A stretch of DNA of 64,000 nucleotides from Candidatus Omnitrophota bacterium (GTDB lineage: Bacteria > CAIJMQ01): NCBI GenBank assembly GCA_018812925.1, contig JAHJCU010000008.1, positions 62,001-126,000 on the forward strand. The letters are read 5' to 3'. The translations under genes were made by a program, and so were the position numbers. The notes under the pieces were generated by a model. The model was not told where the DNA came from and made no database searches. It saw only the letters and a program-made list of their open reading frames with translations. Shown here piece by piece: positions 26,621 through 57,780 of this stretch; position 1 is the first letter of the stretch; every line of letters begins with the position of its first letter.

Positions 26621-28333
26621 CTAATGAGAAGAATTCTGGACTTCTTTTTTCTTCAGTTTTCCATAATAAGAATGTGCAAATCTATGTGCTTCGTCACGGA
26701 CACGCGCAAGAAAACGGAAAGATTCCATGCGAGGATTTAAGATTATCATTCTGGAAGAATAAGATAAGTGAATTTTGTTCTCACCTCTTGACCCGTATAG
26801 ACCTGCCCGCTTCGCAGCAGGCGGGAATCCATTTCTAACGGGTTTAGCTATTCCTACAATTGGCATATTCTCTATGCCTAACTCGTTGAAAACTTGTTTG
26901 GCAATGTTAACTTGTCCTTTACCTCCATCTACGAGGACTAAATCAGGCAATTTAGTTTTTTCGTTAAGTATTCGCTTATATCTTCTTTCAATTATTTCCC
27001 CCATCATCATATAATCATCCGACGTATCAATGCTTTTAATTTTGAATTTTCTCCATTCATTTTTCTTGGGAGAACCCTTCTCAAAGACAACTACGCTTCC
27101 GACCGCATTCTTCCCCATTATATTTGAAATATCTATTCCTTCTATTCTAAAAGGAACCGAAGGAAGATTTAATCTCTCTTTAAGGTCTGTAAGCATATTT
27201 ATGGGTTCAGATTTTAATGAGAATCCCTCCATTAATTTATATTGCGCATTATCGCTTGCCATCTTGAGCAATCTCTTCTTATCACCCCTTTGGGGAACGG
27301 AAATCTTTACGGTTTTGCCTTTGGTTTTTTTCAGCCATTTTTCCAAAAGATTCTTTTCTTTCAGAATAACCGGAACAAATATTTCATCGGGAATACCTGC
27401 CCGACAATATTCAGCAGGCGGGAGAGAACTCAATGAATAATATTGTTCTATGAAAGATAGAACAGCTTCTTCTATTTTAGAATCTATTATCACTATCAAG
27501 TTGAATTTTTCCTGCGCCGATAATTTCCCATTTCGCACCTTAAATAAAACAATTAAAGCTTTATTTTTAGATCTCGCATAACCTATGAAATCCTGATTTT
27601 GTCCGTCTAATTTCGAAATTGTTTGAAGGGAAAACATTTTATGGATTGATTCTATTTGGTCTCTAAATTTTGCGGATTTTTCATACTCTTTAGATGCGCT
27701 CGCCTCATTCATTCTATTTTTAAGGTAAGAAAGCAACTTTTGGGTTTCCCCCGAAAGAAACATAGAAACATTTTCAATCATTTCCATATAATCTTCTTTT
27801 GAAACCTTACCCGTGCAGGGACCTACACATCTTGCAATATGATAATTAAGACAGGGTTTGCCGTCTATTTTGGTTTTCTTACAAGTCTTAAAAATAAAAG
27901 TCTTTCGCAGCAGCAATAGAGTCTTTCTTAAAGATTTTGCATCGGTGTATGGACCAAAATATTTTGCTTTTCCATCCTCCAGGTCACGCGTTATATAAAC
28001 CGTCGGAAACTGTTCTTCCCGAGCTATCTTTATATAAGGATAACTTTTATCATCTCTCAACATTATGTTGTATCTGGGTTTGTGTTCTTTGATTAGATTG
28101 CATTCAAGTATCAATGCTTCAACTGCAGATTGAGTAATGAGGTAATCTATTGATACTGTTTTTTTTGTTAAGACAGCGTCCTTGCCGAAAAAATCGGGAT
28201 TTTGAAAATGCGACTTTACTCTGTTTCTTATATTCCCTGCTTTGCCTATATAGAGATAATTGCCGTTTCTATCTTTGAAAATATAAACGCCGGCAGAAGT
28301 CGGAAGTGCGTTTACCTTTTCTCTAATTTCCAT
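26621..28333 (-). CDS. uvrC: Excinuclease ABC subunit C, lacking the C-terminal HhH domain
   Basis: Makes the two incisions of nucleotide-excision repair. 570 residues: GIY-YIG nuclease (about 10-95, PTSAGVYIFKDRNGNYLYIGKAG), Cys-rich region, UVR motif near 205-235, and the RNase-H-like endonuclease half with IEGIDISNIMGKNAVGS and DLVLVDGGKGQVN. It stops at YYGKLKKKEVQNSSH, where the family normally continues with the tandem helix-hairpin-helix DNA-binding domain; no frame downstream encodes that domain. Two in-frame palindromes add extra peptides: LPPAEYCRAG at about 304-313, and GFPPAAKRAG within about 497-514, close to the catalytic region. The 3' side carries the two-hairpin module. The protein may be functional but atypical. 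Confidence 0.9.
   Translation of the reverse strand: MEIREKVNALPTSAGVYIFKDRNGNYLYIGKAGNIRNRVKSHFQNPDFFGKDAVLTKKTVSIDYLITQSAVEALILECNLIKEHKPRYNIMLRDDKSYPYIKIAREEQFPTVYITRDLEDGKAKYFGPYTDAKSLRKTLLLLRKTFIFKTCKKTKIDGKPCLNYHIARCVGPCTGKVSKEDYMEMIENVSMFLSGETQKLLSYLKNRMNEASASKEYEKSAKFRDQIESIHKMFSLQTISKLDGQNQDFIGYARSKNKALIVLFKVRNGKLSAQEKFNLIVIIDSKIEEAVLSFIEQYYSLSSLPPAEYCRAGIPDEIFVPVILKEKNLLEKWLKKTKGKTVKISVPQRGDKKRLLKMASDNAQYKLMEGFSLKSEPINMLTDLKERLNLPSVPFRIEGIDISNIMGKNAVGSVVVFEKGSPKKNEWRKFKIKSIDTSDDYMMMGEIIERRYKRILNEKTKLPDLVLVDGGKGQVNIAKQVFNELGIENMPIVGIAKPVRNGFPPAAKRAGLYGSRGENKIHLSYSSRMIILNPRMESFRFLARVRDEAHRFAHSYYGKLKKKEVQNSSH
26791..26843. repeat. Composite palindrome inserted in frame in uvrC (C-terminal site)
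   Basis: Outer arms ACCCGTATAG and CTAACGGGT (the CCCGTTAGAA type) enclose CCTGCCCGC-TTCGCA-GCAGGCGGG. It encodes the extra stretch ending FPPAAKRAGLYG, between IAKPV and the ENKIHLSY strand, where UvrC proteins normally have a short loop. Confidence 0.75.
27396..27422. repeat. GC-rich palindrome inserted in frame in uvrC (middle site)
   Basis: CCTGCCCGAC, AATATT, CAGCAGGCGGG. Translated on the uvrC strand as LPPAEYCRAG just before IPDEIFVP, where homologues have a continuous tyrosine-rich linker. Confidence 0.7.
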
Positions 28334-28335
28334 GT

Positions 28336-28415
28336 TTTGGTTAGCCAGTTTGCCAGTTAGTCGGTTTATCAGTTTAATAATTCACTATTAACTTGTTTAC
28401 TCGTTAACCCGCTAA
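28336..28415. repeat. Octamer (8-bp period) array, GTT/AAC family
   Basis: GTT recurs exactly every 8 bp five times in the left arm (GTTAGCCA, GTTTGCCA, GTTAGTCG, GTTTATCA), and AAC every 8 bp in the right arm. It separates murJ from uvrC. Confidence 0.65.
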
Positions 28416-29939
28416 CTAAGTTTTTCTTGTTTTTAACCAATCCCACAGTTGCTGCATTTCTTTTACCTGGAAAACAAAACAAAAAGAAATATAAGACAAT
28501 CCCCCGATAAGAATTATAAGAAATAAATTGAAAGATTTAAACAGATAACATACTACTCCCATCCCGACACTTGCCAAAAGAATGCGCAAGAAAGAATAAA
28601 CTATCTCATTTGCATTAAAAGGTTCAATCTTTTTCTTAAGTATGAAAAACAACATGAAGAAGGTAATTATTCCTGAAATAGATGTAGCCAAAGCTATTCC
28701 CCCCAATTTCATGGGGAAAATAAGAACGGCATTCAAAGCTATATTCATAACTAAGGCAACAAAAGCAATTTTTGCAGGAGTTGCAGTATCTTTTAAGGCG
28801 AAAAAACAGGACTGTAATATTCTTTTAGCTCCGTAGGCAAATAAACCGATACTGTAAAAGAATAAAACGCTCGCAGTTATATTAGTAGCATAGGCATCAA
28901 ATTTGCCGCTTTTAAATATAGTAGAAATAATCGGGTGAGCTAAAACCATAAAGCCAATCGATGCCGGAAGCATTACAAAAAATGTTGCGCGTAGTCCAAA
29001 TGAAAGCGTATGCTTCAACTTATCATAATTATCTTCCAAAGCCTGCGTAGAAAATGTCGGCAGTATCGCCTGCGACAGCGCAGTGCTAAAAATACCCAAA
29101 GGGAAAAGAATCAAACGATACGCAAAATATAGTCCCGCCACTCCTCCTTCGCCTACAATAGCCAAAGAACCAAATATCGTGTCCACGAAATTGTTTAATT
29201 GATAAACACCCGAACTTAAGACCCGTGGAACCATCAGTTTGCCGATAGTTTTAGCCGCTGGGTGATTGAAATTGTGAGGAAATTTTAAACGAAAGCCCTT
29301 TTTATAAAGAATAGGAATTTGGAAAAAAAGTTGTAAAGCGCCGCCGACAAGAACGCCCAGCGACAAACCTTTGATATTCTCTCCAAAAATAAGGGCAAAG
29401 ATAATTATCGAAATATTCAAAAGACACGGCGCAAATGCAGGGATAGAAAAATGTTTCAGAGAATTAAGAACTGCCATAGCATAAGCCGCTAATCCAACCA
29501 AAATAATATACGGAAATATAATGCGGGTTAAGGTAATAGTGGTTTGTAATTTATATGGGTCGGCAGTAAAACCCGGCGCTATAAGCCGCACGATAACGGG
29601 AGAAAATACTATCCCCAGAAACGTAATTAAAGTCAGGGCTACCAAAAGCAGATTTAAAACAACATTTGCCAATTGCCAGAATTCTTCTTTGGAATGTTTT
29701 ACGGTATATTCGCTGAATACGGGGACAATCGCGGCATTGGCAGCGCCCTCGCCGACAAAATCTCTGAACAAATTGGGGATTTTAAAAGCAATGACGAAAG
29801 CTTGAGCGTATACGCCTACGCCAAATAATTTAGCAATAATAACATCGCGGATAAAACCCAATATGCGTGATATAAAAGTCGCAAAACTTATAATGCCTGC
29901 TGATTTAGTAACAGCTTTGTTTATTGAAGTGGTTTTCAT
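28416..29939 (-). CDS. murJ: Lipid II flippase MurJ (MviN family)
   Basis: Flips lipid II across the inner membrane for peptidoglycan synthesis. 507 residues with about fourteen membrane helices. The N-terminal SAGIISFATFISRILGFIRD, RDFVGEGAANAAIVPVF and later GGVAGLYFAYRLILFPLGIF and RILQSCFFALKDTATP are family blocks, including the conserved charged residues of the central cavity in RD and RIL-type motifs. Presence of murJ with namZ indicates a peptidoglycan wall. No clear ribosome site is visible; the upstream gap to mtnA contains an inverted-repeat element. Confidence 0.93.
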   Translation of the reverse strand: MKTTSINKAVTKSAGIISFATFISRILGFIRDVIIAKLFGVGVYAQAFVIAFKIPNLFRDFVGEGAANAAIVPVFSEYTVKHSKEEFWQLANVVLNLLLVALTLITFLGIVFSPVIVRLIAPGFTADPYKLQTTITLTRIIFPYIILVGLAAYAMAVLNSLKHFSIPAFAPCLLNISIIIFALIFGENIKGLSLGVLVGGALQLFFQIPILYKKGFRLKFPHNFNHPAAKTIGKLMVPRVLSSGVYQLNNFVDTIFGSLAIVGEGGVAGLYFAYRLILFPLGIFSTALSQAILPTFSTQALEDNYDKLKHTLSFGLRATFFVMLPASIGFMVLAHPIISTIFKSGKFDAYATNITASVLFFYSIGLFAYGAKRILQSCFFALKDTATPAKIAFVALVMNIALNAVLIFPMKLGGIALATSISGIITFFMLFFILKKKIEPFNANEIVYSFLRILLASVGMGVVCYLFKSFNLFLIILIGGLSYISFCFVFQVKEMQQLWDWLKTRKT

Positions 29940-30016
29940 AGGGTTCGATTATTATGCTAACATATCTATTGTTCTGTCTCAATATATCATATATCCAGAA
30001 ATTGTCTTTGACAAAG

Positions 30017-30105
30017 CCCCATTAGAAATAAAGCTATGACATTAAATCGCTTATGGAAAAATATAGTACAAATAAGAATTGAAAATCCCCAAATTTCTAA
30101 CGGGG
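30017..30105. repeat. CCCCATTAGAAAT ... ATTTCTAACGGGG inverted-repeat element
   Basis: 13-bp arms with one mismatch, 63 bp apart, in the divergent murJ/mtnA gap. Same termini as the elements at 55353-55455 and 57017-57084. Confidence 0.6.
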
Positions 30106-30143
30106 TAAATTTATGATAAAATGTGAAACTTGGAGAAACTAAA

Positions 30144-31178
30144 ATGCCTTCTACCCCAATAGAATGGAAAAATAATAAGGTCAAAATAATCGACCAGAGC
30201 CTACTACCCAACAAGCTCAATTACATCTACATCGAAACCTGTGAAGAAATGTTCGATGCGATAAAAAACTTAAAAATAAGGGGTGCGCCTGCTCTAGGCA
30301 TAGCTGCGGCTTTTGGGCTGTATTTGGGAATCAAAGATTTTAAAACAACAAGTTTTAAACGGTTTGAAAAGAAACTGAACGAAGTCATAAAACACTTAAG
30401 CAATTGTCGCCCTACCGCACGCAATTTGTTTTGGGCTCTTGAAAAACTCAAAGATAAAGTCGACCAGTTGAAAAAATATCCGATAAACAGCATAAAAGGC
30501 GCTCTTTTAGAAGAAACGCTTAAGATACAAATGGAAGACAATAAAACCTGCCAGCTCATCGGAGAAAAAGGCGCCAATCTCATAAAAGACGGCGATACGA
30601 TCCTTACTCATTGTAATGCCGGCGGACTTGCCACATCCGGTTACGGAACAGCATTGGCAGTAATATTTAAAGCCAAAGAACAGGGCAAAAAAATAAAAGT
30701 GTATGTTGGCGAAACAAGACCTTTGCTTCAAGGAGCAAGACTCACCTGTTGGGAACTTCTTCAAGAAAAAATCGATGTTACTCTTATATGCGACAGTATG
30801 GCAGGTGAAGTAATGAAAGAAGAAAAAATAAAGAAAGTTATAGTAGGAGCCGACAGAATAGCTCTAAACGGCGATGTTGCCAACAAAATAGGCACTTATT
30901 CGCTCGCTGTTTTAGCCAGTTTTCACAATATCCCCTTTTATGTCGCTGCGCCTATATCGACTTTTGACCCCAAAATAAGAAAGGGAGAAGACATACCAAT
31001 TGAACAAAGAGAAGCAGGCGAAATAGAAAATTTTGCAGGCAAAAGAACCGCCCCTGAAGGCGTTAAAGTTTATAATCCGGCTTTTGATGTTGTGCCGAAT
31101 TCCTTGATTACTTGCATAATAACCGAGAAAAAATTAGTTTATCCTTCTTACAGGAAGAATATAAAAAAGGTGTTATAA
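30144..31178 (+). CDS. mtnA: S-methyl-5-thioribose-1-phosphate isomerase
   Basis: Isomerises MTR-1-P to MTRu-1-P in methionine salvage. 344 residues from the ATG at 30144, preceded by TTGGAGAAA; a GTG seven codons upstream is less likely. Family motifs: IRGAPALGIAAAFG, THCNAGGLATSGYGTALAVI with the catalytic Cys, VGETRPLLQGARLTCWEL, and the catalytic Asp in IVGADRIALNGDVANKIGTY. The aIF2B-like fold also includes ribose-1,5-bisphosphate isomerases, but the CNAGGLAT/GADRI pair with RPTARN fits MtnA. No other salvage gene is in the window. The pseudopilin gene follows after 19 bp. Confidence 0.93.
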   Translation: MPSTPIEWKNNKVKIIDQSLLPNKLNYIYIETCEEMFDAIKNLKIRGAPALGIAAAFGLYLGIKDFKTTSFKRFEKKLNEVIKHLSNCRPTARNLFWALEKLKDKVDQLKKYPINSIKGALLEETLKIQMEDNKTCQLIGEKGANLIKDGDTILTHCNAGGLATSGYGTALAVIFKAKEQGKKIKVYVGETRPLLQGARLTCWELLQEKIDVTLICDSMAGEVMKEEKIKKVIVGADRIALNGDVANKIGTYSLAVLASFHNIPFYVAAPISTFDPKIRKGEDIPIEQREAGEIENFAGKRTAPEGVKVYNPAFDVVPNSLITCIITEKKLVYPSYRKNIKKVL

Positions 31179-31197
31179 AAGCTTAGTAAGGAATAAA

Positions 31198-31728
31198 ATG
31201 TTAAAGAGAATTTTAAAATCCAAAACAGGTTTTACTCTCACCGAATTATTATTAGTAACTTCTATATTGGGAGCTGTATCTCCGGCCGCATACATCGGAG
31301 TAAAAAACAAAGCATACGAAATCAGTTGCATGAACAACTTAAAACAAATCGGCACAACACTTCAAATGTTCGAATTGGAACAAGGGAAATTACCCGATGC
31401 GAAGTTTTTCCCGAACAATCCCAACACCGACCCAAGAAGCATTAAAGTCATCCTCAAAAATTACGGCATGCCCAATGAAATATTTATTTGTCCGACTGCC
31501 CCCCAGCAATTGAAAGATTTGGGATTGACTTATTTATGGAACGACGAAGTAAACGGGAAAAGCTTATATTCTATTGACAATCCTTCGCAAACATGGTTAA
31601 TGGTAGACATGACTGCTGCCTACGAAGAAGCAACATCCCATAGAAACGGATACAATATACTTTATGCAAATTTTCAGGTAAACTGGAGTGCTTCTCCTCC
31701 TTTTAACCCTAAAACCGTGGAGAAATAA
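31198..31728 (+). CDS. Type IV pilin-like / pseudopilin protein
   Basis: 176 residues. The N-terminus KRILKSKTGFTLTELLLV is a class-III prepilin signal (cleavage after Gly, Phe+1, Glu+5) followed by the hydrophobic alpha1 helix with SPAAYIGVKN. The rest has MNNLKQIGTTLQMFELEQGKLPDA, and the C-terminal RNGYNILYANFQVNW resembles the H-x9-D-G region of GspG/DUF1559-type proteins, with the D-G replaced by A-N. Likely a minor pilin or pseudopilin processed by PilD. It is only 1 bp from purB, so the two genes are co-transcribed; a functional link is not evident. Confidence 0.8.
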   Translation: MLKRILKSKTGFTLTELLLVTSILGAVSPAAYIGVKNKAYEISCMNNLKQIGTTLQMFELEQGKLPDAKFFPNNPNTDPRSIKVILKNYGMPNEIFICPTAPQQLKDLGLTYLWNDEVNGKSLYSIDNPSQTWLMVDMTAAYEEATSHRNGYNILYANFQVNWSASPPFNPKTVEK

Positions 31729-31729
31729 A

Positions 31730-33028
31730 ATGATTAAAAGATATACTTTTAAAGAAATGGGAGATATCTGGGATGAAAAAAACAGATATGCAAAATGGCT
31801 GGAAGTGGAATTAGCGGCTTGCGATGAAATGCAAAAAGAAGGGCTGGTCCCAAAAGGGATTACAGAAAAGATAAAGAAAAAAGCAAAAGTAAATCTTGAT
31901 ATGATCCACGCTTTTGAAAAATCAAATAATCACGAAGTTATCGCCTTTCTAGATTCATTGGCAAAAATTGTAGGCGATGAAGCAAAATATATACATTTAG
32001 GTTTGACCTCTTCAGACATAATGGACACCGGACTTGCTCTGCAAATGAAAGATGCAAGTAAAATCATACTGAAAGATTTAGATGTTTTAATAACGATATT
32101 AAAAAAGCAGGCGTTGAAGCATAGAAATACCGTGATGATAGGAAGAACTCACGGCATCCACGCTCAACCAATAACATTGGGCTTAAAATTTGCGCTATGG
32201 TGGGAAGAAATAAAGAGAAACAGGCTAAGATTTGAAAATGCTATGGAATCAATAAGTTACGGAAAAATTTCAGGCGCCGTGGGAACGTTTACTCATACTT
32301 CGCCAAAATTGGAAGAATCTACCCTAAATAAATTGGGCTTAAAACCGGAGCCAATTGCCACGCAAGTTGTCCAAAGAGACAGACACGCCCAATTTCTCCT
32401 AACATTGGCTTTAATATCTTCATCAATAGAAAAATTCGCGTTAGAAATAAGACACCTGCAACGAACAGAAGTGCGCGAAGCCGAAGAACCTTTTGGTAAA
32501 ACTCAAAAGGGCTCTTCAGCTATGCCTCATAAACGAAATCCGATTCTTTGCGAAAGGATATGCGGTTTGGCAAGAATAATAAAATCAAACGGAATAGTAT
32601 CTTTAGAAAATATTCCTCTGTGGCACGAAAGAGACATTTCGCATTCTTCTGCAGAAAGAGTAATTATCCCGGATTCTTGTATTCTTATCGATTACATTCT
32701 GCAAAAATTTATCTTTGTAATTGAAAATTTATCTATATTCCCTGCAAGGATGAAACAGAATTTGGCGATAAGCGGAGGGCTCATTTACTCGCAGAAAATA
32801 GTTACGGCGCTCATAAATAAGGGGATGAATAGAGAAAAAGCATATAATGTAGTCCAAAAATATGCTTTGGAAAGTTACGACACAAAAAAAGATTTTAAAT
32901 CCTTGATTTGTAAAGACAAAGAAATAAACAAACGCATAAGTAAAAAAGAGTTAGATGTATGCTTTGATTTCTCATCTCTTCTTAAAAATGTAAACAAAAT
33001 ATTTCAAAGATTGGGCATTGAAAAATAG
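31730..33028 (+). CDS. purB: Adenylosuccinate lyase
   Basis: Acts twice in purine synthesis, cleaving SAICAR and adenylosuccinate with release of fumarate. 432 residues from the ATG at 31730 (MIKRYTFKEMGDIWDEK), with GGAGAAAT upstream. The fumarase-superfamily signatures are present: LTSSDIMDTGLALQ, GRTHGIHAQPITLG, VVQRDRHAQFL, and the flexible loop KGSSAMPHKRNPILCE with the catalytic serine. Length is normal for the short bacterial form. Confidence 0.95.
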   Translation: MIKRYTFKEMGDIWDEKNRYAKWLEVELAACDEMQKEGLVPKGITEKIKKKAKVNLDMIHAFEKSNNHEVIAFLDSLAKIVGDEAKYIHLGLTSSDIMDTGLALQMKDASKIILKDLDVLITILKKQALKHRNTVMIGRTHGIHAQPITLGLKFALWWEEIKRNRLRFENAMESISYGKISGAVGTFTHTSPKLEESTLNKLGLKPEPIATQVVQRDRHAQFLLTLALISSSIEKFALEIRHLQRTEVREAEEPFGKTQKGSSAMPHKRNPILCERICGLARIIKSNGIVSLENIPLWHERDISHSSAERVIIPDSCILIDYILQKFIFVIENLSIFPARMKQNLAISGGLIYSQKIVTALINKGMNREKAYNVVQKYALESYDTKKDFKSLICKDKEINKRISKKELDVCFDFSSLLKNVNKIFQRLGIEK

Positions 33029-33045
33029 GCAAACAAATTTAAGTA

Positions 33046-33122
33046 TCGTGATTGGTAACTGGTAAAGCGTAATTTTTTAAAATTACCATTTACGAATTAC
33101 TATTTACGGATTACGGTTTTCA
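33046..33122. repeat. Heptamer array, GTAA/TTAC family
   Basis: GTAA at 7-bp steps three times, a perfect AT centre GTAATTTT-TT-AAAATTAC-like, then TTAC at exactly 7-bp steps five times (TTACCAT, TTACGAA, TTACTAT, TTACGGA, TTACGG). Confidence 0.8.
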
Positions 33123-33130
33123 TAAAACAA

Positions 33131-33817
33131 ATGGATAATTTCGACGATATTGTTAAAAATATAAAAACATGCACCAAGTGTCATCTCGCGAAAACCCGCA
33201 CAAATGCCGTTCCTGGCGAAGGGGATAAACAAACAGAAATTATCTTCATAGGCGAAGCGCCCGGACGCAATGAAGACATTCAGGCAAAGCCCTTCGTGGG
33301 ACAAGCGGGAAAAATTCTCGATAATCTTCTCAGAGAAATCGGGCTTGATAGAAAAAAAGTATATATAACTAATATCGTGAAATGCCGTCCTCCCGAAAAT
33401 CGCGACCCGCAACCGGAAGAAATCAACACCTGCATACCTCACTTATTTAAACAGATAGCAGCCATTAAACCAAAAGTTATATGCACATTGGGAAGATTTG
33501 CCTTTGCCGAAATTATGGAAAGAAAAGTATTTATTAGCTCCGAACACGGCAGACCGTTTAAAACAGAACATGGGAACAGAATCGGTGAAGGAATAAATGT
33601 TTTCCCTCTTTATCATCCTGCTGCGACTTTGCACCAACCAAACTTGATGAGTGCTTTAAAAGAAGATTTTGCAAAACTACAAAAATTCCTAACTTCTCCC
33701 CCACCCGAAGAAAAAGAAGTTCCAAAAGTAAAAGAAAATCCGCTTGCTTCTGTGTACAACAAAAAACAGACAAAAGACCAAATAGAGAAAAAAGATAAAC
33801 AATTAGGACTTTTTTAA
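33131..33817 (+). CDS. udg: Family-4 (Fe-S) uracil-DNA glycosylase
   Basis: Removes uracil from DNA. 228 residues. Four cysteines of the [4Fe-4S] cluster are placed as in the family: C14 and C17 (TCTKCHLAKTR), one in VKCRPPENRDP and one in EINTCIPHL. The active loop is GEAPGRNED, and the second motif is YHPAATLHQPNL with the uracil-binding His. The C-terminal 35 residues are Lys/Pro-rich and probably disordered. Belongs with mutS, recA, ogt and uvrC as the repair genes of this window. No clear ribosome site; the gene starts 9 bp after a heptamer array. Confidence 0.93.
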   Translation: MDNFDDIVKNIKTCTKCHLAKTRTNAVPGEGDKQTEIIFIGEAPGRNEDIQAKPFVGQAGKILDNLLREIGLDRKKVYITNIVKCRPPENRDPQPEEINTCIPHLFKQIAAIKPKVICTLGRFAFAEIMERKVFISSEHGRPFKTEHGNRIGEGINVFPLYHPAATLHQPNLMSALKEDFAKLQKFLTSPPPEEKEVPKVKENPLASVYNKKQTKDQIEKKDKQLGLF

Positions 33818-33898
33818 ATAGTAAAGCGTTTTTACATATTCTCTCCCTAACACCACATAAAAACCTCAAGCAAAAACCTCTAAATTAAGCTATAATAT

Positions 33899-34069
33899 TA
33901 ACCGTAATTGGTAACTCGTAAAGCGCCCCGTGGAATCTAAAAGATTCCCGGGACCAAAGTCCTTGAGATTGTTCATCAATCTCTAAGGGTAATTCGTAAC
34001 TTTTTTTAATTACCAATTACCATTTACGGATTGCTGTTTACCATTTTCGTAATTAGTAATTACGAAAAT
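33899..34069. repeat. Heptamer array, GTAA/TTAC family, interrupted by a module
   Basis: CCGTAATTGGTAACTCGTAAAG (GTAA every 7 bp) leads into the two-hairpin module (33926-33989), after which GTAATTCGTAAC and then TTACCAA, TTACCAT, TTACGGA words continue the array up to the tRNA-Thr gene. The 460 bp between udg and cinA consist of this array, the module, the tRNA and a second array. Confidence 0.75.
33926..33989. repeat. CCCC-hairpin-GGGAC-hairpin-GGG module, copy 3
   Basis: CCCCGT, hairpin GGAATCT-AAA-AGATTCC, core GGGACCAAAGTCC, hairpin GAGATTG-TTCAT-CAATCTC, TAAGGG. Differs from copy 4 at only three positions, all in or beside hairpin loops. Confidence 0.8.
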
Positions 34070-45945: not shown

Positions 45946-47088
45946 ATGAAGAATAAAACGGACACCAAATTCATTAAAGAGGCATTGGCTCTCGCAGTAA
46001 AAGCCGAAGGGCTCACGTCCCCCAATCCTTTGGTCGGCGCTGTTATCGTAAAGGGGAACAAAATTATCGGAAGAGGTTATCATAAAAGAGCAGGTTCTAA
46101 GCACGCTGAAATCCTTGCCCTTGAATCAGCAGGAAAGCCTGCCCACCAGCCCGCTACGAAGCTGGCAGGCAACCGAAAGGCAGGCGGGAAAACAAAAGGA
46201 GCTACTCTGTATATCAACCTTGAGCCATGCGCTCATTACGGTAAAACACCGCCCTGCGCTCCCGAAATAATAAAAGCAGGTATAAAAAGAGTTGTAATAG
46301 CTATGCCGGACCCAAATCCTTTGGTCAATGGTAAGGGGATAAAGAAACTTAAATCCGAAGGGATAGATGTACAAGTCGGTATCCTTGAACAGGATGCTAG
46401 AAAAATAAACGAAACATATATCAAATATATGACTAAAAAAATGCCGTTTGTAGTTTTGAAATGGGCTATGAGCTTAGACGGTAAAATAGCCACTCGTAAA
46501 GGCAATTCAAAATGGATTTCAGGGAAGGCTTCCAGAGAATTCACACAAAAATTAAGAGGTAAATTCGATGCGGTTCTAATAGGGATAGAAACACTTCTTA
46601 AAGATAACCCTCAACTTAACACTCACGGTTTGGAAATAAAAGAACCAAAAAGAATAATTATTGACAGTAAAGGAAGAATCCCTTTGGATTGCAATCTGTT
46701 AAAAACTAAAGGTGGACAGATTATAATTACCACAACAGATAAAATAAGCAAAAAGAAAATAAGAGATTTGAAGGAAAAAGGAGCAGAGATTATAGTTATT
46801 TCTTCAAAAGAAGGCAGAGTCGACTTAAAGAAACTTATGATAGAATTAGCCAAACGAGAAATTACATCTATATTGGTTGAAGGCGGCGGAACAATAAATG
46901 CTTCATTTATAGAAAATGCCTTGGCAGATAAATTTGTGGCATTTTTATCTCCTATGATAATCGGCGGTAAAAACGCAATTTCCCCTGTAGAAGGAAAAGG
47001 AATAGAAAAAATAGCCAATGCTGTAAGAATCCGCGACTTATCTATAAGGAAAATGGGAGAAGATGTAGTAATGGAAGGATATTTATAA
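45946..47088 (+). CDS. ribD: Riboflavin-specific deaminase/reductase with in-frame repeat insertion
   Basis: Bifunctional second and third steps of riboflavin synthesis. 380 residues. Deaminase domain (1-150): SPNPLVGAVIVK, zinc-site KHAEILALESAG, then LEPCAHYGKTPPCAP with the two zinc cysteines. Reductase domain: PFVVLKWAMSLDGKIATRKG, KFDAVLIGIETLLKDNP and LVEGGGTINASF. Between HAEILALESAG and TLYINLEPC about 17 extra residues occur (from KPAHQPATKLAG), encoded by a GC-rich palindrome; homologues have only a few residues here. The insertion is a surface loop between zinc ligands and may be tolerated. First gene of the rib cluster. Confidence 0.95.
   Translation: MKNKTDTKFIKEALALAVKAEGLTSPNPLVGAVIVKGNKIIGRGYHKRAGSKHAEILALESAGKPAHQPATKLAGNRKAGGKTKGATLYINLEPCAHYGKTPPCAPEIIKAGIKRVVIAMPDPNPLVNGKGIKKLKSEGIDVQVGILEQDARKINETYIKYMTKKMPFVVLKWAMSLDGKIATRKGNSKWISGKASREFTQKLRGKFDAVLIGIETLLKDNPQLNTHGLEIKEPKRIIIDSKGRIPLDCNLLKTKGGQIIITTTDKISKKKIRDLKEKGAEIIVISSKEGRVDLKKLMIELAKREITSILVEGGGTINASFIENALADKFVAFLSPMIIGGKNAISPVEGKGIEKIANAVRIRDLSIRKMGEDVVMEGYL
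46138..46188. repeat. GC-rich palindrome inserted in frame in ribD
   Basis: CCTGCC-CACCAGCCCGC, TACGAA, GCTGGCAGG, CAACCGAAAGG and CAGGCGGG: a nested or partly doubled copy of the CCTGCCCGC...GCAGGCGGG palindrome, 51 bp or 17 codons, at residues about 65-81. Confidence 0.75.
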
Positions 47089-50104: not shown

Positions 50105-50105
50105 T

Positions 50106-52721
50106 ATGGAAGATAAAAACTTCACCCCCATGATTCAGCAGTATCTTACGCTGAAGAGTAAATATCCAAGCGCCATACTTTTTTTCCGTCTTGGGGACTT
50201 CTACGAAACATTCTTTGAAGACGCTAAAATCGCTTCAAAAACCCTGCAAATTGTCCTCACAGCAAGAGACGGAGGCAATAAAAAAAAGGTTCCAATGGCC
50301 GGTATTCCACACCACGCAGTTGAAGGATATCTGGCAAAACTCATACGAGCCGGGCATAAAGTTGCAATATGCGAACAGATGGAAGACCCCAGAAAAGCAA
50401 AAGGATTGGTCAAAAGAGAAGTAGTGCGAGTTATTACTCCCGGAACAATAGTCGAATCGTCTCTGTTGGAAGATAAAGGCAATAATTACATTCTTTCTTT
50501 CCGCCCCGACAAAGATAAAGTAGGTTTCTCTTTTCTTGATTGTTCCACAGGCGAATTCAAAGTTTCCGAAGTTTCACTTGATGAATTCATAATAGAAGTT
50601 TCCCGTCTTTCTCCGTCAGAATGTCTACTACCTGAATCGATCGCAAAAGATAATGATTGGCAAAACAATCTCAATCATAAAATACGCACCTTTACACCCT
50701 ACCCCGATTATAATTTTTCACCCGATGTCGCCACACAAACACTAAAAGAACATTTCAACGTTTATTCTTTGGACGGACTTGGACTCCGCGGGTTTAATTT
50801 AGGCATCGCTTCGGCAGGCGCGCTTTTGGATTATGTAAAAGAGATGGAGAAAACAAAACTGGAACATATAACAAATATAGAACTTTATTCTCCTTCTGAC
50901 TTTATGCTTCTTGACGAAGACACACAACGTAATTTAGAACTTTTAAGAACATTTGCGGGAGAAGAACGCAAAGATACCCTTTATTCAATACTCGACTCCA
51001 CACTCACGCCAATGGGAGGACGGCTCTTAAAAAGATGGATGCTTAATCCTTTACTGGATGTAAGAACCATAAACAAGAGACTGGAGAGTGTAAAAACTTT
51101 TACAAAAAATACACCACTATTAGAAGAATTAAGACAGAACCTAAAAGAAGTATACGACCTGGAACGTATCATAAGCCGTCTTGATACAAATGTAGCAAAA
51201 GGTAAGGACCTTATCGCATTAAAACAATCGTTAAATAAAATCCCGCAAATCAAACAAGTACTTAAAGAATGCAAGTTGCCACCGTTGTTAAAGGAACTTG
51301 CTTCTAATCTTGACGATGTTAAGGAAATCCGCGAACTCATAGAAAAAGCAATCGTTGATAATCCGCCATATATTTTGACCGAAGGCGATGTCATAAAAGA
51401 AGGATATGACAGCGAATTGGACAAGTTAAAAATTGCATCCCGAGAAGGCAAAACCTGGATTGCAGGGCTTCAGACAAAAGAAAGAGAACGGACAGGAATC
51501 AAATCACTAAAAGTAGGTTTTAATAAAATTTTCGGATATTACATCGAGATAACATCATCAAATATTTCACAAGCACCATCTGATTATATCCGCAAACAAA
51601 CTTTAGTTAACTGCGAAAGGTTCATAACTGAAGAACTCAAAGACAAAGAATCCCTCATTATCGGCGCAGAAGAAAAAATGAGAGAGCTGGAGTATGAAAT
51701 TTTTCTACAGGTCCGGCTTCTAATCTTAAAAGAATTAAGCAGAATAAAAAATACTGCATCGAACATAGCAAATTTGGATGTTCTTTCTTCACTCGGAGAT
51801 ATTGCGTTAAAAAATGATTACTGCTGTCCCGAAATAACCGAAACAGGAAAAATCCAGATAAAAGACGGCAGACACCCCGTGCTGGAAAAAGTTATGCCCA
51901 ACAACCCTTTTATTCCAAATAACACACTACTTGATGGCAAAGACCATCAGTTGATTATCATCACGGGACCCAATATGGCGGGAAAATCTACATACATACG
52001 CCAGATTGCTTTAATAGTTTTAATGGCGCAGATGGGCAGTTTCATTCCCGCAAAAGAAGCATCAATTTCTGTTGTAGATAGATTATTCACAAGAGTCGGC
52101 GCAACCGACGATTTAGCAAGGGGCAGGTCAACATTTATGGTCGAAATGAACGAGACCGCGCAGATACTGCGAAATGCCACACCTAAAAGTTTAATAATAC
52201 TTGATGAAGTCGGCAGGGGCACATCTACCTATGACGGCGTATCAATAGCGTGGGCTGTTGCCGAATATATTCATAATAACCCGAAAATTGCCTGCAAAAC
52301 ATTATTTGCCACACACTATCACGAACTCACCGGTTTGGTTGATTTCTTAAAGAAAGCCCAAAACTACAATATTGGTGTAAAAGAATCGGGAGGGAAAATA
52401 ACATTCATAAGAAAAATACTTCCCGGCGCGCAGGATAAAAGTTACGGAATTCACGTGGCCGCTTTGGCAGGAATGCCAGACGAGGTTATAAACAGAGCAA
52501 ACGATATCTTGAAGAGTTTAGAAAGAGAAAAATTTATATCTTCAAAGAAAGGTTCGACAAGAACACCGAAAATTAAAATAGACCAACTGACATTCTTCTC
52601 TCCTAAAGAAACAAGTCATCCTATAATTGAAGAGATTAGAAATTTAAAAGTTGAAGAACTCACCCCGCTGGAAGCCCTGAACAAGTTGAGCGAACTAAAG
52701 AAAAAAGCAAAAGAATCGTAA
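50106..52721 (+). CDS. mutS: DNA mismatch repair protein MutS
   Basis: Recognises mismatches and recruits MutL. 871 residues: mismatch-binding domain I with PSAILFFRLGDFYETFFEDA (Phe-x-Glu wedge), domain with AGIPHHAVEGYLAKLI, lever/clamp region, then ATPase with Walker A GPNMAGKSTYIRQ near residue 620, ATDDLARGRSTFMVEM, LILDEVGRGTSTYDGVSIAWA and ATHYHEL. Full length for MutS1. No mutL in the window. No good Shine-Dalgarno sequence; the upstream sequence is repeat array. Confidence 0.97.
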   Translation: MEDKNFTPMIQQYLTLKSKYPSAILFFRLGDFYETFFEDAKIASKTLQIVLTARDGGNKKKVPMAGIPHHAVEGYLAKLIRAGHKVAICEQMEDPRKAKGLVKREVVRVITPGTIVESSLLEDKGNNYILSFRPDKDKVGFSFLDCSTGEFKVSEVSLDEFIIEVSRLSPSECLLPESIAKDNDWQNNLNHKIRTFTPYPDYNFSPDVATQTLKEHFNVYSLDGLGLRGFNLGIASAGALLDYVKEMEKTKLEHITNIELYSPSDFMLLDEDTQRNLELLRTFAGEERKDTLYSILDSTLTPMGGRLLKRWMLNPLLDVRTINKRLESVKTFTKNTPLLEELRQNLKEVYDLERIISRLDTNVAKGKDLIALKQSLNKIPQIKQVLKECKLPPLLKELASNLDDVKEIRELIEKAIVDNPPYILTEGDVIKEGYDSELDKLKIASREGKTWIAGLQTKERERTGIKSLKVGFNKIFGYYIEITSSNISQAPSDYIRKQTLVNCERFITEELKDKESLIIGAEEKMRELEYEIFLQVRLLILKELSRIKNTASNIANLDVLSSLGDIALKNDYCCPEITETGKIQIKDGRHPVLEKVMPNNPFIPNNTLLDGKDHQLIIITGPNMAGKSTYIRQIALIVLMAQMGSFIPAKEASISVVDRLFTRVGATDDLARGRSTFMVEMNETAQILRNATPKSLIILDEVGRGTSTYDGVSIAWAVAEYIHNNPKIACKTLFATHYHELTGLVDFLKKAQNYNIGVKESGGKITFIRKILPGAQDKSYGIHVAALAGMPDEVINRANDILKSLEREKFISSKKGSTRTPKIKIDQLTFFSPKETSHPIIEEIRNLKVEELTPLEALNKLSELKKKAKES

Positions 52722-52786
52722 GAGAATTAGACAAATATTTTCTTATTCAAAAGTAAAAAACTTTTTATTGTAGTTCTTGAATATTT

Positions 52787-53122
52787 TCAACTATGTATTT
52801 CGGGAATTTTCTTATTCTGTGCCTTAACCACACCAACAACAAGAACCCTATCACCAAACCAAATTTTATCCTTCCCGATTTTTTCCATCATTGTTGATCC
52901 ATTGAATTTCAATAGTACAATATTACGAGTATTACCAACGGTATGGCTGGTAACTTCTAATACGGGCTCAGCATATTCAAGATAAATACCTTCGATTTTA
53001 ATCTTGTGTCCCTCAAAATCTTCGATAGCACTTTTAGTTACTAAGGTTTTCGGACTATTATTCTCACGAATACAGCCACTAACCAAAATAGAAAAGGCAA
53101 TTAATGAGAATAGATATTTCAT
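52787..53122 (-). CDS. Small lipoprotein
   Basis: 111 residues. Signal peptide KYLFSLIAFSILVSGC with a good lipobox (LVSG-C, Cys17), so a lipid-anchored periplasmic or outer-membrane protein. The mature part (DFEGHKIKIEGIYLEYAEP, VLLKFNGSTMMEKIGKDK and FGDRVLVVGVVKAQNKKIPEI) has short beta strands reminiscent of an OB-fold as in tRNA_anti-like or BOF proteins. No function can be assigned. On the opposite strand to mutS, 65 bp from its end. Confidence 0.6.
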   Translation of the reverse strand: MKYLFSLIAFSILVSGCIRENNSPKTLVTKSAIEDFEGHKIKIEGIYLEYAEPVLEVTSHTVGNTRNIVLLKFNGSTMMEKIGKDKIWFGDRVLVVGVVKAQNKKIPEIHS

Positions 53123-53194
53123 TTATATTTTATTCATTAATATTCTCTTACAACTTCTTCAAAACCAATTCAGTTGTTATTTTACCTCAACTAC

Positions 53195-53557
53195 TCACCT
53201 GGCAAATATCATCTTTAACGCAATCAACAATAACGCCACACCGAATACCTTTTCTAAAACTACACTTGGTAAATTGGTTGCTATTTTTGCGCCGAATAAA
53301 CCGCCGATAAAAAAACCCATACAAATAAAGGATGCTATTTTAAGGTCGACATATCCGTGTTTGTAATATGTCCATGCGGCGAGTATACCGATTGGAGGAA
53401 CAAGCAAGGCAAGTGTTGTGCCTTGTGCTTGATGCTGGGAAAGTCCGAATAGAAAAATTAAAGCTGGAACAATAATTACTCCACCGCCTATTCCGATTAC
53501 TCCGCTTAAAGCTCCTGCAAATAACCCTAAAGCAATATAAAGTAAAATATTATTCAT
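53195..53557 (-). CDS. TauE/SafE-family permease, half-size
   Basis: 120 residues with four hydrophobic helices. The N-terminal LLYIALGLFAGALSGVIGIGGG, the hallmark glycine run, followed by PALIFLFGLSQHQAQGTTLA and a later GFFIGGLFGAKIATNLP, is TauE/SafE. Full members have about 250 residues from two such halves; small single-half members exist and presumably dimerise. The family exports sulfite, sulfoacetate or related anions. It lies 3 bp downstream of thi4, within a sulfur-related group with cysE. Confidence 0.8.
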   Translation of the reverse strand: MNNILLYIALGLFAGALSGVIGIGGGVIIVPALIFLFGLSQHQAQGTTLALLVPPIGILAAWTYYKHGYVDLKIASFICMGFFIGGLFGAKIATNLPSVVLEKVFGVALLLIALKMIFAR

Positions 53558-53560
53558 ATT

Positions 53561-54334
53561 TTATAATTTCTTCAAAACTAATTCTGCAACTTTTTTACCC
53601 GATAGAAGCATTCCGCCGAAGATAGGACCCATTCTTGGACCACCGAATACAGCGTTGACCGCCATACCCGTAACCCAAAGGCCGGGATATACTTCTTTTG
53701 TATTTTCTACGATAAGTTTTTCGCCGACTTCCGCCCACATTGGTTTTTCACCGAGCATACCGCCGGTGGAAGTGTTGAGTTTTACACCCATTTTCTTTTC
53801 CATACCTCTTACCACTTCGCAAGGGTGTCCTGTTGCGTCTATGATTATTTTTGCGCCGATTGTTATAGGGTCAATATGCAGTTTTGCCATTTCTACGGGA
53901 GACCAGTTAATTACAATCCCCGTAATTTTGTTTTCCCGTATCATTACATCTTCGCAGGAGATAAGATTAAAAATCATAGCGCCTGCTTTCTTTGCATTGA
54001 AACATAAACCCGATGCCATTTCTACGCAATCAACAATATAATAGTTTTCCTTATATTTCTTTAACCGGATATTCTGTTCTTCAAGGATTGGCTTTGCTTC
54101 TTCCTGAATGACCGCTTTGTTGAACATCATACCACCGCCCCACATACCGCCGCCGATGGAAAGTTTTCTTTCAAACAGGGCGACTTTTTTGCCGGCTTTA
54201 GCCAGATAATATGCGGCGATAAGACCAGAAGGGCCGCCGCCAACAATAGCGACATCAAGTTCTGTTGCAGTTCTTAGTTCTTTTGAGTATTCTTCAATAA
54301 TCGCTTGGGAAATCAGGATTTCGTTCAGTTCCAC
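53561..54334 (-). CDS. thi4: Thiazole synthase Thi4 (sulfide-dependent or related archaeal-type)
   Basis: 257 residues from a GTG at 54334, preceded by GAGAAGGAGAAG; a TTG at 54352 is possible. NAD-binding start [52 protein letters not shown] and the C-terminal [24 protein letters not shown] are Thi4. The family builds ADP-thiazole for thiamine from NAD and glycine; yeast-type enzymes donate their own Cys sulfur while many prokaryotic ones use sulfide. By eye I find no Cys at the suicidal position, favouring sulfide use, with low certainty. Overlaps cysE by 41 bp. Confidence 0.88.
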
Positions 54335-55301
54335 GCTTCTTCTCCTTCTCAAGTTGTTCGATACGATAGTTTAAATCCTTTATTTCATCCTGCAGGGAAT
54401 TAACTTCTTGCGAAGGAGCAACTTCCTGCCCTGTTACTTCCTTCTTATCGTTTTCTATTTTTTCGATGTGTTCTTTTAAGCCCTTTATTTCATCTTTCAG
54501 GGAATTAGTTGTTTGTGAGAACTCAACCTCCTGTTCTGTCTGGCCCTTTTTATCTTCCTGCGCCTGCTTGATGTATACCTTTAATTGTTTTATTTCACCT
54601 TTCAGCGAATCGATTGTCTGTGTGAAATCTACTTGGGATGGGTTTTTCTTATCTTCTTCGGACTGTTCCAATTTGTTGCTCAAACCTTTTATTTCGTCTT
54701 TTAGAGCATTAATGGTTTGCAATACCGGGTCAGGAAGTTTCCCGTGTTCCAGGTCAATTGTTGCTTTTGCGTGTTTCTTATGTTCCTCGACTGTTCTTCC
54801 TGGAACACCCACTACAGTACTATCGGGAGGAACGGATTTTATTACAACAGAGCCCGCACCTATTTTAGAACCTTCGCCTATATTAATTGGGCCAAGAATT
54901 TTTGCGCCTGTGCCGATTACAACGTTATCTTCAATAGTCGGATGTCTCTTTCCTTTCTTAAGACTTGTGCCGCCAAGAACAACTCCCTGATACAGAAGAA
55001 CATCATCACCTATATCAGTCGTCTCACCGATAACCACACCCATACCATGGTCTATAAAAAATCTTCTGCCGATTTGAGCGCCCGGATGAATTTCAATTCC
55101 GGTCATAAATCGGTTAAAGTGGGAAAGAAGCCGCGCCAAAAATAAATAACCATGCTCCCACATAATATGGGCGATTCTGTGCAGCCATAAAGCGTGCAGT
55201 CCCGGATAGCAAAGTACAACTTCCATAGTTGACCTTGCTGCTGGGTCCTCTGCAAAAACGGTTCTTATATCTTCTTTTAACAAAGATTTTAAATCTATCA
55301 T
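54294..55301 (-). CDS. cysE: Serine O-acetyltransferase with repeated coiled-coil tail
   Basis: Acetylates serine for cysteine synthesis. Residues 1-205 are a complete Cys[22 protein letters not shown], left-handed beta-helix with [57 protein letters not shown] and [12 protein letters not shown]. The usual short C-terminal tail is replaced by about 125 residues forming four tandem units of about 35 residues, each with [20 protein letters not shown] heptads, a predicted coiled coil, joined by Gln/Glu/Thr-rich linkers. The tail might oligomerise or tether the enzyme and could affect the O-acetylserine sulfhydrylase interaction. Its end overlaps thi4. A GGAGGTATCC-type site lies before the ATG. 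Confidence 0.93.
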
Positions 55302-55352
55302 TTAGGATACCTCCGATTTGATATGTTATACGGTTGTCGGGTTTAATTCAAC

Positions 55353-55455
55353 CCCCGTTAGAAATTTAAAAAACGCTAAAATAATTATTAACCAGATAAG
55401 CACCCATTGTTCTGCATAGCATCTTAAAAGCAAGTCATTAAATTTCTTTACGGGG
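55353..55455. repeat. CCCCGTTAGAAATTTAA ... TTAAATTTCTTTACGGGG element
   Basis: Inverted arms of 17-18 bp with few mismatches, about 70 bp apart, between the B-box gene and cysE. Same ends as 30017-30105 and the copy inside namZ. Confidence 0.6.
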
Positions 55456-55463
55456 TCAACCCT

Positions 55464-55787
55464 TTATATCTTTAATTTTAGCAGACCCAAAAGTTCCTTT
55501 ATACTCTCAATAATATCTATTTTCAGTATAAAACGGGCTACAATCCATAAAACAACAAACCAGATAATAAGTTTAACAATTGTCGGAATTCTTTTTTGTT
55601 TAATAATAGGTCTTTCTTCGTCTATTTCCTTGATTCTCTCAACGTGCGACTCCATCTTTTTGCCGCATTCTTCCGAACAGAATATTCCGCTGGGAGCTGA
55701 TATACCGCAATCCTCGCAAATCGGCCTATGGCACATCTTGCAGCGCAAAGTAGCTTCTTTTTTAAGACACTTTGTACAGGTGGACAT
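55464..55787 (-). CDS. B-box-type zinc-finger membrane protein
   Basis: 107 residues. The N-terminal 45 residues carry a dense Cys/His set (CTKCLKKEATLRCKMCHRPICEDC, read as C-x2-C...C-x2-C...C-x2-C, then FCSEECGKKM), like the bacterial B-box/rubredoxin-like zinc domain. A charged helix (50-68) leads to one membrane helix (about 70-90, VKLIIWFVVLWIVARFIL) and an amphipathic end. Probably cytosolic zinc module anchored in the inner membrane; function unknown. AAAGGAGGTGAAAT is an excellent ribosome site. Confidence 0.75.
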   Translation of the reverse strand: MSTCTKCLKKEATLRCKMCHRPICEDCGISAPSGIFCSEECGKKMESHVERIKEIDEERPIIKQKRIPTIVKLIIWFVVLWIVARFILKIDIIESIKELLGLLKLKI

Positions 55788-55803
55788 ATTTCACCTCCTT
55801 TAA

Positions 55804-55880
55804 AACTCGGTGTTCGGTTATCGTAAATAATTTTTAACGCAAACCGAAAACCGTTTTATCTTTACGCTAACCGTCTTTTA
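55804..55880. repeat. Heptamer array, CGGTTAT/AACCG family
   Basis: CGGTGTT, CGGTTAT, CGTAAAT, AT centre, then AAACCG, AAAACCG and CTAACCG words at 7-bp steps. Same family as 37756-37830 and 47096-47173. Lies between namZ and the B-box gene. Confidence 0.7.
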
Positions 55881-57158
55881 TTTATATATCAGATACTTCT
55901 CTCTTTTTTCATTAAATTCGTTTAATTCTATTTCCCATTTTTTTATAATTTCGTCAACATTTTTACCTTCTCTTATTTCATCTAATATATAATCTACCCC
56001 CCAGATTTCATTAAAATCTTTGGACGGAATATATTTGCCGGGATATAATGATTCCAATGAAGTTAAAATCTCCAATGCCGTTTTAACAGGCTTAAAAGTT
56101 CTTTTGTCAGTAAGCACTAACCTTATGCCTCCAAGCTCCTTATCTTTAAACGAAAAATAAAACGGTTTAAACCAGTAGGGCTGGAATTTTACACCGGGAA
56201 TATTCTTAGCATTTAATTTTTCCGCAAATTTATTCGGGTCAATCCATTCGCTGCCAATCAACTCAAACGGGAGAGTATATCCCACACCGTTACACAAATT
56301 AGCGCTACCGATAGTTCCTGTCGTAGCGTATAGAAAAGCGGACTCAACTGTGGGAATATGCGGAGAAGTTGGAACCCAATCAAGACTGGTATCATCCCAA
56401 ATCATATTTCTCGTCCAGACTTTCATAGGCACAACAGTCAGTTTAAGTTCAATTTTATATTCTTCTCTTATAAATTTCGCCATCTCGCCTATAGTCATAC
56501 CATGAACCAAAGGAATATCGAACAAACCAATGAAACTTTTATGCTCTTCTTTTATTATGGGTCCTTCTATATTAAACCCGCCCAAGGGATTTGGCCTATC
56601 TAAAACCACAAATTCCTTTCCATATTTTGCGGCTGATTCCATAGCATAAAACAATGTTGAAATATAAGTATATGTTCTGGCGCCTATATCCTGAATGTCA
56701 AAAAGTAAAACATCTATTTCGGATAACATCTCTTCGGTAGGGCAACGGGTCTTTCCATAAATTGAATATACCGGCAGTTTTGTTTTTTCATCTACAATTT
56801 TACTTACATGTTTTCCGGCTAATACTTCGCCTCTTATACCGTGTTCGGGAGCAAAAAGAGCAACAAGATTGAAGGCAGGATTTTCATAAAGAATATCGGT
56901 TGTTGATTTTAAATTTGAATCTACGCCCGTGGGATTGGTTATAAGTCCTAATCTTTTATTTTTGAGAATTTCCACATAGCCTGTGTCTTCCTTCAACACT
57001 TCTATGCCTAATTTTACCCCGTTAGAAGTTTTCAACACAATTTCTTTAGTATCATTCAAACTTTCCGTATTACTTCTAACGGGGCAAAAAACAGAATTAA
57101 CGAATAGAAAAAAGGGCATAATCGCAATTACAATGAAGAGTCGTCTTGATAAACGCAT
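55878..57158 (-). CDS. namZ: Exo-beta-N-acetylmuramidase NamZ (DUF1343)
   Basis: Releases MurNAc from the non-reducing ends of peptidoglycan fragments. 426 residues with a signal peptide (RRLFIVIAIMPFFLFVNSVFC, split at its hydrophobic core) and the family blocks LGLITNPTGVDSN, ALFAPEHGIRGE, PVYSIYGKTRCPTEEML, LLFDIQDIGARTYTYISTL, VLDRPNPLGG, VHGMTIGEMAKFI and TTGTIGSANLCNGVGYTLPFE. Between the signal peptide and mature enzyme, residues about 25-47 are encoded by a perfect inverted-repeat element. Located in periplasm by inference; it may serve wall recycling. Confidence 0.92.
   Translation of the reverse strand: MRLSRRLFIVIAIMPFFLFVNSVFCPVRSNTESLNDTKEIVLKTSNGVKLGIEVLKEDTGYVEILKNKRLGLITNPTGVDSNLKSTTDILYENPAFNLVALFAPEHGIRGEVLAGKHVSKIVDEKTKLPVYSIYGKTRCPTEEMLSEIDVLLFDIQDIGARTYTYISTLFYAMESAAKYGKEFVVLDRPNPLGGFNIEGPIIKEEHKSFIGLFDIPLVHGMTIGEMAKFIREEYKIELKLTVVPMKVWTRNMIWDDTSLDWVPTSPHIPTVESAFLYATTGTIGSANLCNGVGYTLPFELIGSEWIDPNKFAEKLNAKNIPGVKFQPYWFKPFYFSFKDKELGGIRLVLTDKRTFKPVKTALEILTSLESLYPGKYIPSKDFNEIWGVDYILDEIREGKNVDEIIKKWEIELNEFNEKREKYLIYK
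57017..57084. repeat. CCCCGTTAGAAGT / ACTTCTAACGGGG element inside namZ
   Basis: Perfect 13-bp inverted arms with a 42-bp interior, read in frame as the linker after the NamZ signal peptide. Same ends as the intergenic copies at 30.0 and 55.4 kb. Confidence 0.8.
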
Positions 57159-57228
57159 AGCTTAATTTTACACGCAAGATACTTATGTAGCAATAGGTGG
57201 ATTTTTCCGCATGATATAATTATAAGTT

Positions 57229-57780
57229 ATGTCAAATATAATTTTTTATACTTTCCTTGACTCATTTTTAGGAACAATAGGGCTCGCTTCGTCTTCTTCG
57301 GGCGTGGTATATGTGGATATGGGAATAAAAAAAAGAGCTTTTTTATGTAAACTAAAGCAAAAATTCCCGACCTGTAAACTAATAAAATCGGAAAAGAAAA
57401 ACTCTAAAGCGATATGTGAATTAAACTCTTATCTGAAAGGAAATATGAAATCGTTTGAAAGTAAGCTGGATTTAAAAGGCCCGCCCAAATCATGTCGGGC
57501 AGGTCCTCCAAAATCTCGGCGGGCAGGCACGCCTTTTCAGATTAAAGTATGGAATTGTTTAAGAAAAATTCCTTACGGTAAAATGTATTCATATAAATTT
57601 ATTGCCTGTAAAATAGCAACATGCTCCCATTCGCGCGCGGTCGGCAATGCTGTCGCTAAAAATCCTGTTGCGATATTTATTCCCTGTCATAGAGTAATCA
57701 ATTCCAACGGGGATTTGGGGAATTATGGCCCCGGCAAGAACTTCAAGAAAATGTTATTAAAGATTGAAAAAGCAATATAA
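57229..57780 (+). CDS. ogt: Methylated-DNA-protein-cysteine methyltransferase with in-frame repeat
   Basis: Suicidal repair of O6-alkylguanine. 183 residues: active-site IPCHRVINSNGDLGNYG near residues 146-162, the DNA-binding helix SRAVGNAVAKNP with its arginine finger, and TPFQIKVWNCLRKIPYGKMYSY. Just before TPFQ a doubled 8-residue unit PPKSCRAG-PPKSRRAG (about 84-100) is encoded by two tandem 24-bp palindromic repeats; homologues lack it. A TATAAT at 57215-57220 lies so close to the ATG that the mRNA may be leaderless; no Shine-Dalgarno sequence is seen. Confidence 0.92.
   Translation: MSNIIFYTFLDSFLGTIGLASSSSGVVYVDMGIKKRAFLCKLKQKFPTCKLIKSEKKNSKAICELNSYLKGNMKSFESKLDLKGPPKSCRAGPPKSRRAGTPFQIKVWNCLRKIPYGKMYSYKFIACKIATCSHSRAVGNAVAKNPVAIFIPCHRVINSNGDLGNYGPGKNFKKMLLKIEKAI
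57478..57533. repeat. Two tandem 24-bp GC-rich palindromic units in frame in ogt
   Basis: Units read CCCGCCCAAA-TCATGT-CGGGCAGG and TCCTCCAAAA-TCTCGG-CGGGCAGG. Each is 24 bp, eight codons, so duplication keeps frame. Same family as the uvrC and ribD insertions. Confidence 0.8.

Follow-up and report, generated by a model that had tools for sequence, protein, structure and literature searches.

The window, which is the whole 64,000-nucleotide stretch of DNA analysed (G000:C4:62001-126000), comes from a 1.47-Mb genome, G000, whose assembly consists of 14 contigs and is 92% complete. Copies of a GC-rich palindrome lie both between its genes and within uvrC, ribD and ogt. All the copies expected from the original prediction, at 17.3, 25.7, 26.5, 26.8, 27.4, 46.1 and 57.5 kb, are present, Pfam confirms the three host genes, and the tandem units described in ogt are two abutting 24-mers. 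The features are as follows.

17311-17335, + strand: intergenic copy, 25-bp type, one arm divergent
25677-25701, - strand: intergenic copy, canonical 25-bp type CCTGCCCGCTTCGCAAGCAGGCGGG
26457-26489, + strand: intergenic copy, 33-bp type, each arm with one base changed
26621-28333, - strand: uvrC, host gene (Pfam UvrC)
26802-26825, + strand: 24-bp in-frame copy in uvrC; the gene strand encodes PPAAKRAG
27396-27422, + strand: 27-bp in-frame copy in uvrC, in this species only
45946-47088, + strand: ribD, host gene (Pfam RibD)
46138-46188, + strand: 51-bp composite in ribD, a 24-mer nested in a 27-mer
57018-57083, - strand: palindrome of a second family, CCCGTTAGAA...TTCTAACGGG, 66 bp, in frame in namZ
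57229-57780, + strand: ogt, host gene (Pfam O6-methylguanine-DNA methyltransferase)
57480-57503, - strand: first 24-bp unit in ogt, abutting the second
57504-57527, - strand: second 24-bp unit in ogt

There are also intergenic repeats of about 60-140 bp at 22430-22620, 26500-26580 and 33925-33995 of the window, which have many copies in three relatives (G001, G002 and G003).

In one orientation the unit reads CCTGCC-CGC-loop-GCA-GGCGGG and is strand-asymmetric. Pairing of the arms CCTGCCCGC and GCAGGCGGG leaves a single C.A mismatch and a single T.G wobble, and because both have fixed positions in the stem the two strands differ. Imperfect CCTGCCCGC/GCAGGCGGG pairs, counted in either orientation, outnumber perfect inverted pairs by 46:1 in G000 and by 16:0 in G001. 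The elements are 24-39 bp long and fall mainly into classes of 24, 25, 27, 33 and 39 bp. The 24-mer is CCTGCCCGCTTCGCAGCAGGCGGG, of which there is also a one-base variant, and the canonical 25-mer has one extra A. In none of the six frames do the common units contain a stop codon, a property that only 4-8% of random stretches of equal length in this genome have.

The 9-base CCTGCCCGC core occurs four times in the window (0.09 expected). In the whole genome 55 palindromes fit the pattern CCTGCCNGC-N(0-30)-GCAGGC and none fits the reversed-pattern control, which contradicts chance matching as their source; single-arm matches number 176 against 5 in the control. The predicted palindrome is therefore real, but given its fixed mismatch and wobble it is not perfect. 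In total there are about 50 elements in this genome, which has a GC content of 37%.

Other host proteins include phosphoglycerate kinase (PGK), phosphofructokinase (PFK), NAD-dependent DNA ligase (LigA), PheT, ValS, Dfp, a transketolase, pyruvate:ferredoxin oxidoreductase, RACo, a nickel-insertion protein, an amidase, a protein with a fumarase domain and an A/V-type ATP synthase subunit. In alignments to solved structures of RibD and methyltransferase, the position of the gaps suggests that the inserts lie in loops: the ribD insert falls at a gap of 17 residues, and the ogt insert at a gap of 16 residues that matches PPKSCRAGPPKSRRAG within the placement of the alignment. For PGK and the 26.8-kb site of uvrC the alignment is less clear as to loop placement.

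Empty sites, boundaries and nesting

Syntenic regions were compared with G001 and G002, which are of the same genus as G000, and with G003, which is of the same family; G001 is mostly 92-98% identical to G000 at the DNA level in aligned genes. The uvrC copy at 27396-27422 adds exactly 27 bp to the gene in G000, and the site is empty in G001, G002 and G003, with intact flanks and no target duplication. The uvrC gene of G001 has its own 27-bp unit at a different place, and in G002 the gene has a separate insert, about 30 bp long, at a third position. At 26.8 kb, G001 has the same copy in decayed form, and G002 and G003 lack it. G001 likewise has the 51-bp ribD insert, which G003 lacks, and the number of 24-bp units in ogt is none in G003, one in G002 and two in G000. 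As predicted, then, the uvrC, ribD and ogt inserts are absent from relatives, and the empty sites in uvrC (G001 to G003), ribD (G003) and ogt (G003) rule out that the inserted residues are ancestral. In G001 the entire ogt gene (57229-57780 of the window) is gone from its syntenic place, and the flanking matches there are about 20 bp apart.

Copies in pfk, valS, pheT and a DEAD-box helicase gene are found in G000 only, and their sites are empty in G001, G002 and G003. Besides the uvrC unit, G001 alone has gained copies in ribD, a Thi4-family gene and a Sua5/YrdC-family gene, as well as in a FAD-oxidase gene (no outgroup) and in pheT (outgroup not aligned). All of the lineage-specific insertions of G000 and G001 are in frame. 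Because the outgroups, where checked, do not have the insert, the lineage-specific differences are gains and not losses, and there are about 12 in-frame gains in the roughly 80 kb compared between the two sister species. The proposal of a mobile or copyable element is well supported by these gains.

Some sites are occupied by elements of different length. The site L192:2236 has 33 bp in G000 and 24 bp in G001, the site L098:9849 has 33 and 36 bp in the sister species, and the dfp site has 39 bp in G000 and G001, 27 bp in G002 and no element in G003. The first two of these sites suggest that elements are replaced internally, or that one type is converted to another.

At clean empty sites the inserted block spans CCTGCC to GGCGGG, or close variants of those ends, and the joined flanks equal the empty allele either exactly or with few substitutions. 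There is no target-site duplication: in 51 copies, the last bases of the left flank and the first of the right flank are no more alike than in shuffled pairs. Nested copies independently give the same boundaries. Taking out the inner 27-mer at L013 in G000 restores the canonical 24-mer, and taking out a 27-mer at L126 in G001 restores another 27-mer. There is similar nesting in the IMG/VR contigs L214, L216, L217, L221 and L237. Within the window, the ribD composite was parsed as a 24-mer inside a 27-mer from the alignment by inspection, and the uvrC 24-mer at 26802-26825 sits within the loop of an older AACGGG-type palindrome, ACCCGTATAGAAAT...ATTTCTAACGGGT. At the level of the aligned alleles, the data show that insertion is precise at many unrelated sites, including the inside of other copies, and that it is recent and has occurred independently in the sister species.

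The orientation of the element tracks positive local GC skew in 36 of the 51 copies. Insertion by IS200/IS605 systems is strand-linked, and the bias may be a weak hint of the same behaviour here.

Reading frame and location of the copies

The census of G000 covered about 276 kb of the 1.47 Mb, picked around known copies and mostly coding, in which genes were called by codon usage and 51 elements, strictly defined, were assigned a position relative to them. There are 29 elements in genes, 20 between genes and 2 at gene edges. The length is divisible by three in all 29 of the in-gene copies but in only 10 of the 20 intergenic ones (Fisher P=2e-5), a difference in the direction predicted. In the same sample the 24-mer lies in a gene in nine cases of nine and the 25-mer in none of eight (P=4e-5). 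An earlier census with looser criteria had 30 of 32 in-gene lengths divisible by three, the exceptions being one composite and one truncated parse. In G001 all ten in-gene copies have lengths divisible by three, and one 24-mer is intergenic. Some intergenic copies share flanking repeats, and are therefore not all independent, so that the intergenic number overstates the number of independent events.

These counts show that the frame of the coding copies is under purifying selection, which is the part of the predicted selection for coding compatibility that holds; the evidence does not support selection for the peptide itself. A PPAxxxRAG-like peptide had been expected in each gene, but this is not always what is encoded, as the in-gene copies use all six reading frames (11, 6, 4, 4, 2 and 2 copies). 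Because all six are used, no single peptide is selected for, and the encoded peptide is probably tolerated rather than selected. The uneven use of the frames suggests that certain peptides are better tolerated than others.

Distribution and relation to known repeats

The strict pattern is found in 22 of 386 sampled genomes. There are 45 copies in G000, 12 in G001, 3 in G002, 4 and 8 in two relatives of the same class and 8 in G007, which is outside the class. The loops in G007 match the 27-bp-type loops of G000, and all eight copies examined there are outside any ORF of at least 80 aa. Elements in G007, G294, G004 and G005 are mostly intergenic, and in G005 one copy lies in frame in an ORF. 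The core is found widely, and it is only in the G000/G001 lineage that heavy in-frame invasion has been shown. A scan of IMG/VR gave a strong three-fold length periodicity, but many of the matches are in high-GC coding DNA, where codon structure could cause this by chance, and the IMG/VR matches were used for nested and exact 24-mer copies only. The exact 24-mer of G000 occurs in high-GC contigs filed there as viral (L202:8782-8857, L196:261 and L221:4286), as an inverted pair in L202 and, in L221, after removal of a nested inner copy.

Rickettsia palindromic elements (RPEs) are repeats of about 105-150 bp that are found between genes as well as in frame within conserved protein genes (PMC2229807, PMC10969869). 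The original prediction had likened the palindrome to them, and the likeness is apt as an analogy, in that in-frame insertion in protein genes is again accompanied by intergenic copies. It does not extend to membership: compared by description, the elements here are only 24-39 bp long and have a different core and host, and many recent gains are evident from the empty sites of sister species.

The elements are also dispersed, imperfect hairpins of 20-40 bp with a high copy number and no target duplication, which makes them REPs in the wide sense. Intragenic REPs have been published, several of them in DNA-repair genes including uvrA and uvrB, and CGTC REPs, too, have no dedicated transposase (PMC3733652). 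In contrast with GTAG and CGTC REPs, the elements here have neither terminal tag. Most REPs are intergenic, whereas over half of the copies sampled here are in genes, in DNA that is mostly coding. The mitochondrial hairpin elements, likened here by description, are likewise short, GC-rich and mobile, but belong to organelle genomes; among them, the GC clusters of yeast are found within the var1 reading frame and the double-hairpin elements of Allomyces have no target duplications (PMC2800124). No relevant paper came up in literature searches for the core sequence.

Mobilising enzyme and rival explanations

There is no match to the Y1 transposase domain of RAYT and IS200 (PF01797) in G000, G003 or G004, although at 92% completeness the absence from G000 is not proof. 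PF01797 matches are present in G001, G002, G005 and G007. Across eight genomes, the number of copies of the element does not vary with the Y1 transposases, and G004 has 13 copies of the element without a Y1 gene. No Y1 gene flanked by a clear pair of elements was found; L188 has arm-like sequence nearby. G000 has no match to the IS110 transposase (PF02371), and none of nine genomes has a match to reverse transcriptase (PF00078), as a retroelement would require. Within 6 bp on either side of the 51 copies there is no GTAG tag, and no CGTC tag except for GACG at one copy.

Taken together, the data are best read as a new REP-like hairpin family, with unusually strong evidence of recent and repeated in-frame insertion in core enzymes. 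Judging from sequence comparisons, we put the probability at about 0.85 that this is a non-autonomous family of mobile hairpin elements of 24-39 bp whose coding copies are filtered by frame; we are much less sure of any particular enzyme class. The enzyme would recognise the asymmetric hairpin, probably as single-stranded DNA in the manner of REP and IS200/IS605 systems, and would paste copies with little target preference. A unit that landed in frame in a tolerant loop would add 8-13 residues to a full-length protein, and any in-frame landing would leave the protein full length because the GC-rich unit is free of stops in all six frames. Frame-breaking lengths, such as 25 bp, would be purged from genes and persist between them.

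A more specific version, in which a RAYT-type Y1 (HUH) transposase, acting in trans from a relative or encoded in the unassembled 8% of the genome, moves the element as a REP, is possible but falls short of an even chance. The size, the imperfect hairpin, the lack of target duplication and the nesting all fit it, as do the Y1 transposases of G001, G002, G005 and G007 and the published REPs within uvrA and uvrB. Against it are the flanks of the 51 copies, which have no tag apart from the one GACG, the lack of a Y1 match in G000, the genome richest in elements, and in G004 with its 13 copies, and the fact that no Y1 gene lies between clear elements, the arm-like sequence at L188 being the nearest case. 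Decayed MITEs moved by an ordinary DDE transposase are improbable. MITEs too are short, non-autonomous inverted repeats, and the second family, CCCGTTAGAA...TTCTAACGGG, in the same genomes does have an end repeat of about 6 bp, ACTAAT, at its one clean empty site, but the CCTGCC family has no target duplication either at clean empty sites or across the 51 copies, and 24-33 bp would be too short for the ordinary transposase-binding ends and interior of a MITE.

Two further explanations concern the product of the host gene. Selection for a useful PPAxxxRAG-like loop, with the palindrome as a by-product, would account for the uneven frames, since xLPA..QAG is read in 11 of the 29 in-gene copies. 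It is nevertheless very improbable: the six frames give unrelated peptides, the host proteins are unrelated to one another, and identical cores are also found between genes and in other lineages. The inserts might instead be skipped or removed, by an intron or by translational bypass as in mitochondrial byp elements, and hairpins within essential genes would otherwise be costly. An insert that is skipped need not hold frame, yet 29 of 29 and 10 of 10 in-gene copies do, and we consider skipping the least probable of these explanations.

On the preferred reading of a REP-like hairpin family, these are small protein insertions from mobile DNA caught at birth in essential enzymes by means of the empty sites of close relatives. 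An uncultured lineage would be added to the phenomenon known from Rickettsia and from REPs, and its units have only a fraction of the length of an RPE. The 24-mer and 25-mer and the nested copies offer a clean system for asking how such short hairpins copy without target duplication. There is also a warning that short protein indels in such genomes may be footprints of mobile elements and not adaptive loops. More tentatively, and with the odds against it, the elements may belong to a hitherto undescribed superfamily of minimal hairpin transposons of 24-33 bp that occurs in distant bacterial lineages and is marked by the C.A/T.G imperfect stem; its mover would not be a RAYT, IS110, DDE or reverse-transcriptase system, and the elements would be a leading source of new protein loops here.

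Palindromes of other families are present in the same genomes. The second family, of about 66 bp, is in frame in namZ, pheT and an apolipoprotein N-acyltransferase gene (window 57018-57083, and G001 alleles at L100:12510, L094:2752 and window 38401), and it is this family that has the one clean empty site with ACTAAT as an end repeat. GC-rich palindromes with other cores, CCCGCTCCTCGTA... and CCCCGCCCATA..., lie inside genes of G001, with alleles at L192:3129 (48 bp, with an AAAC repeat at both ends) and L100:9098 (about 38 bp).
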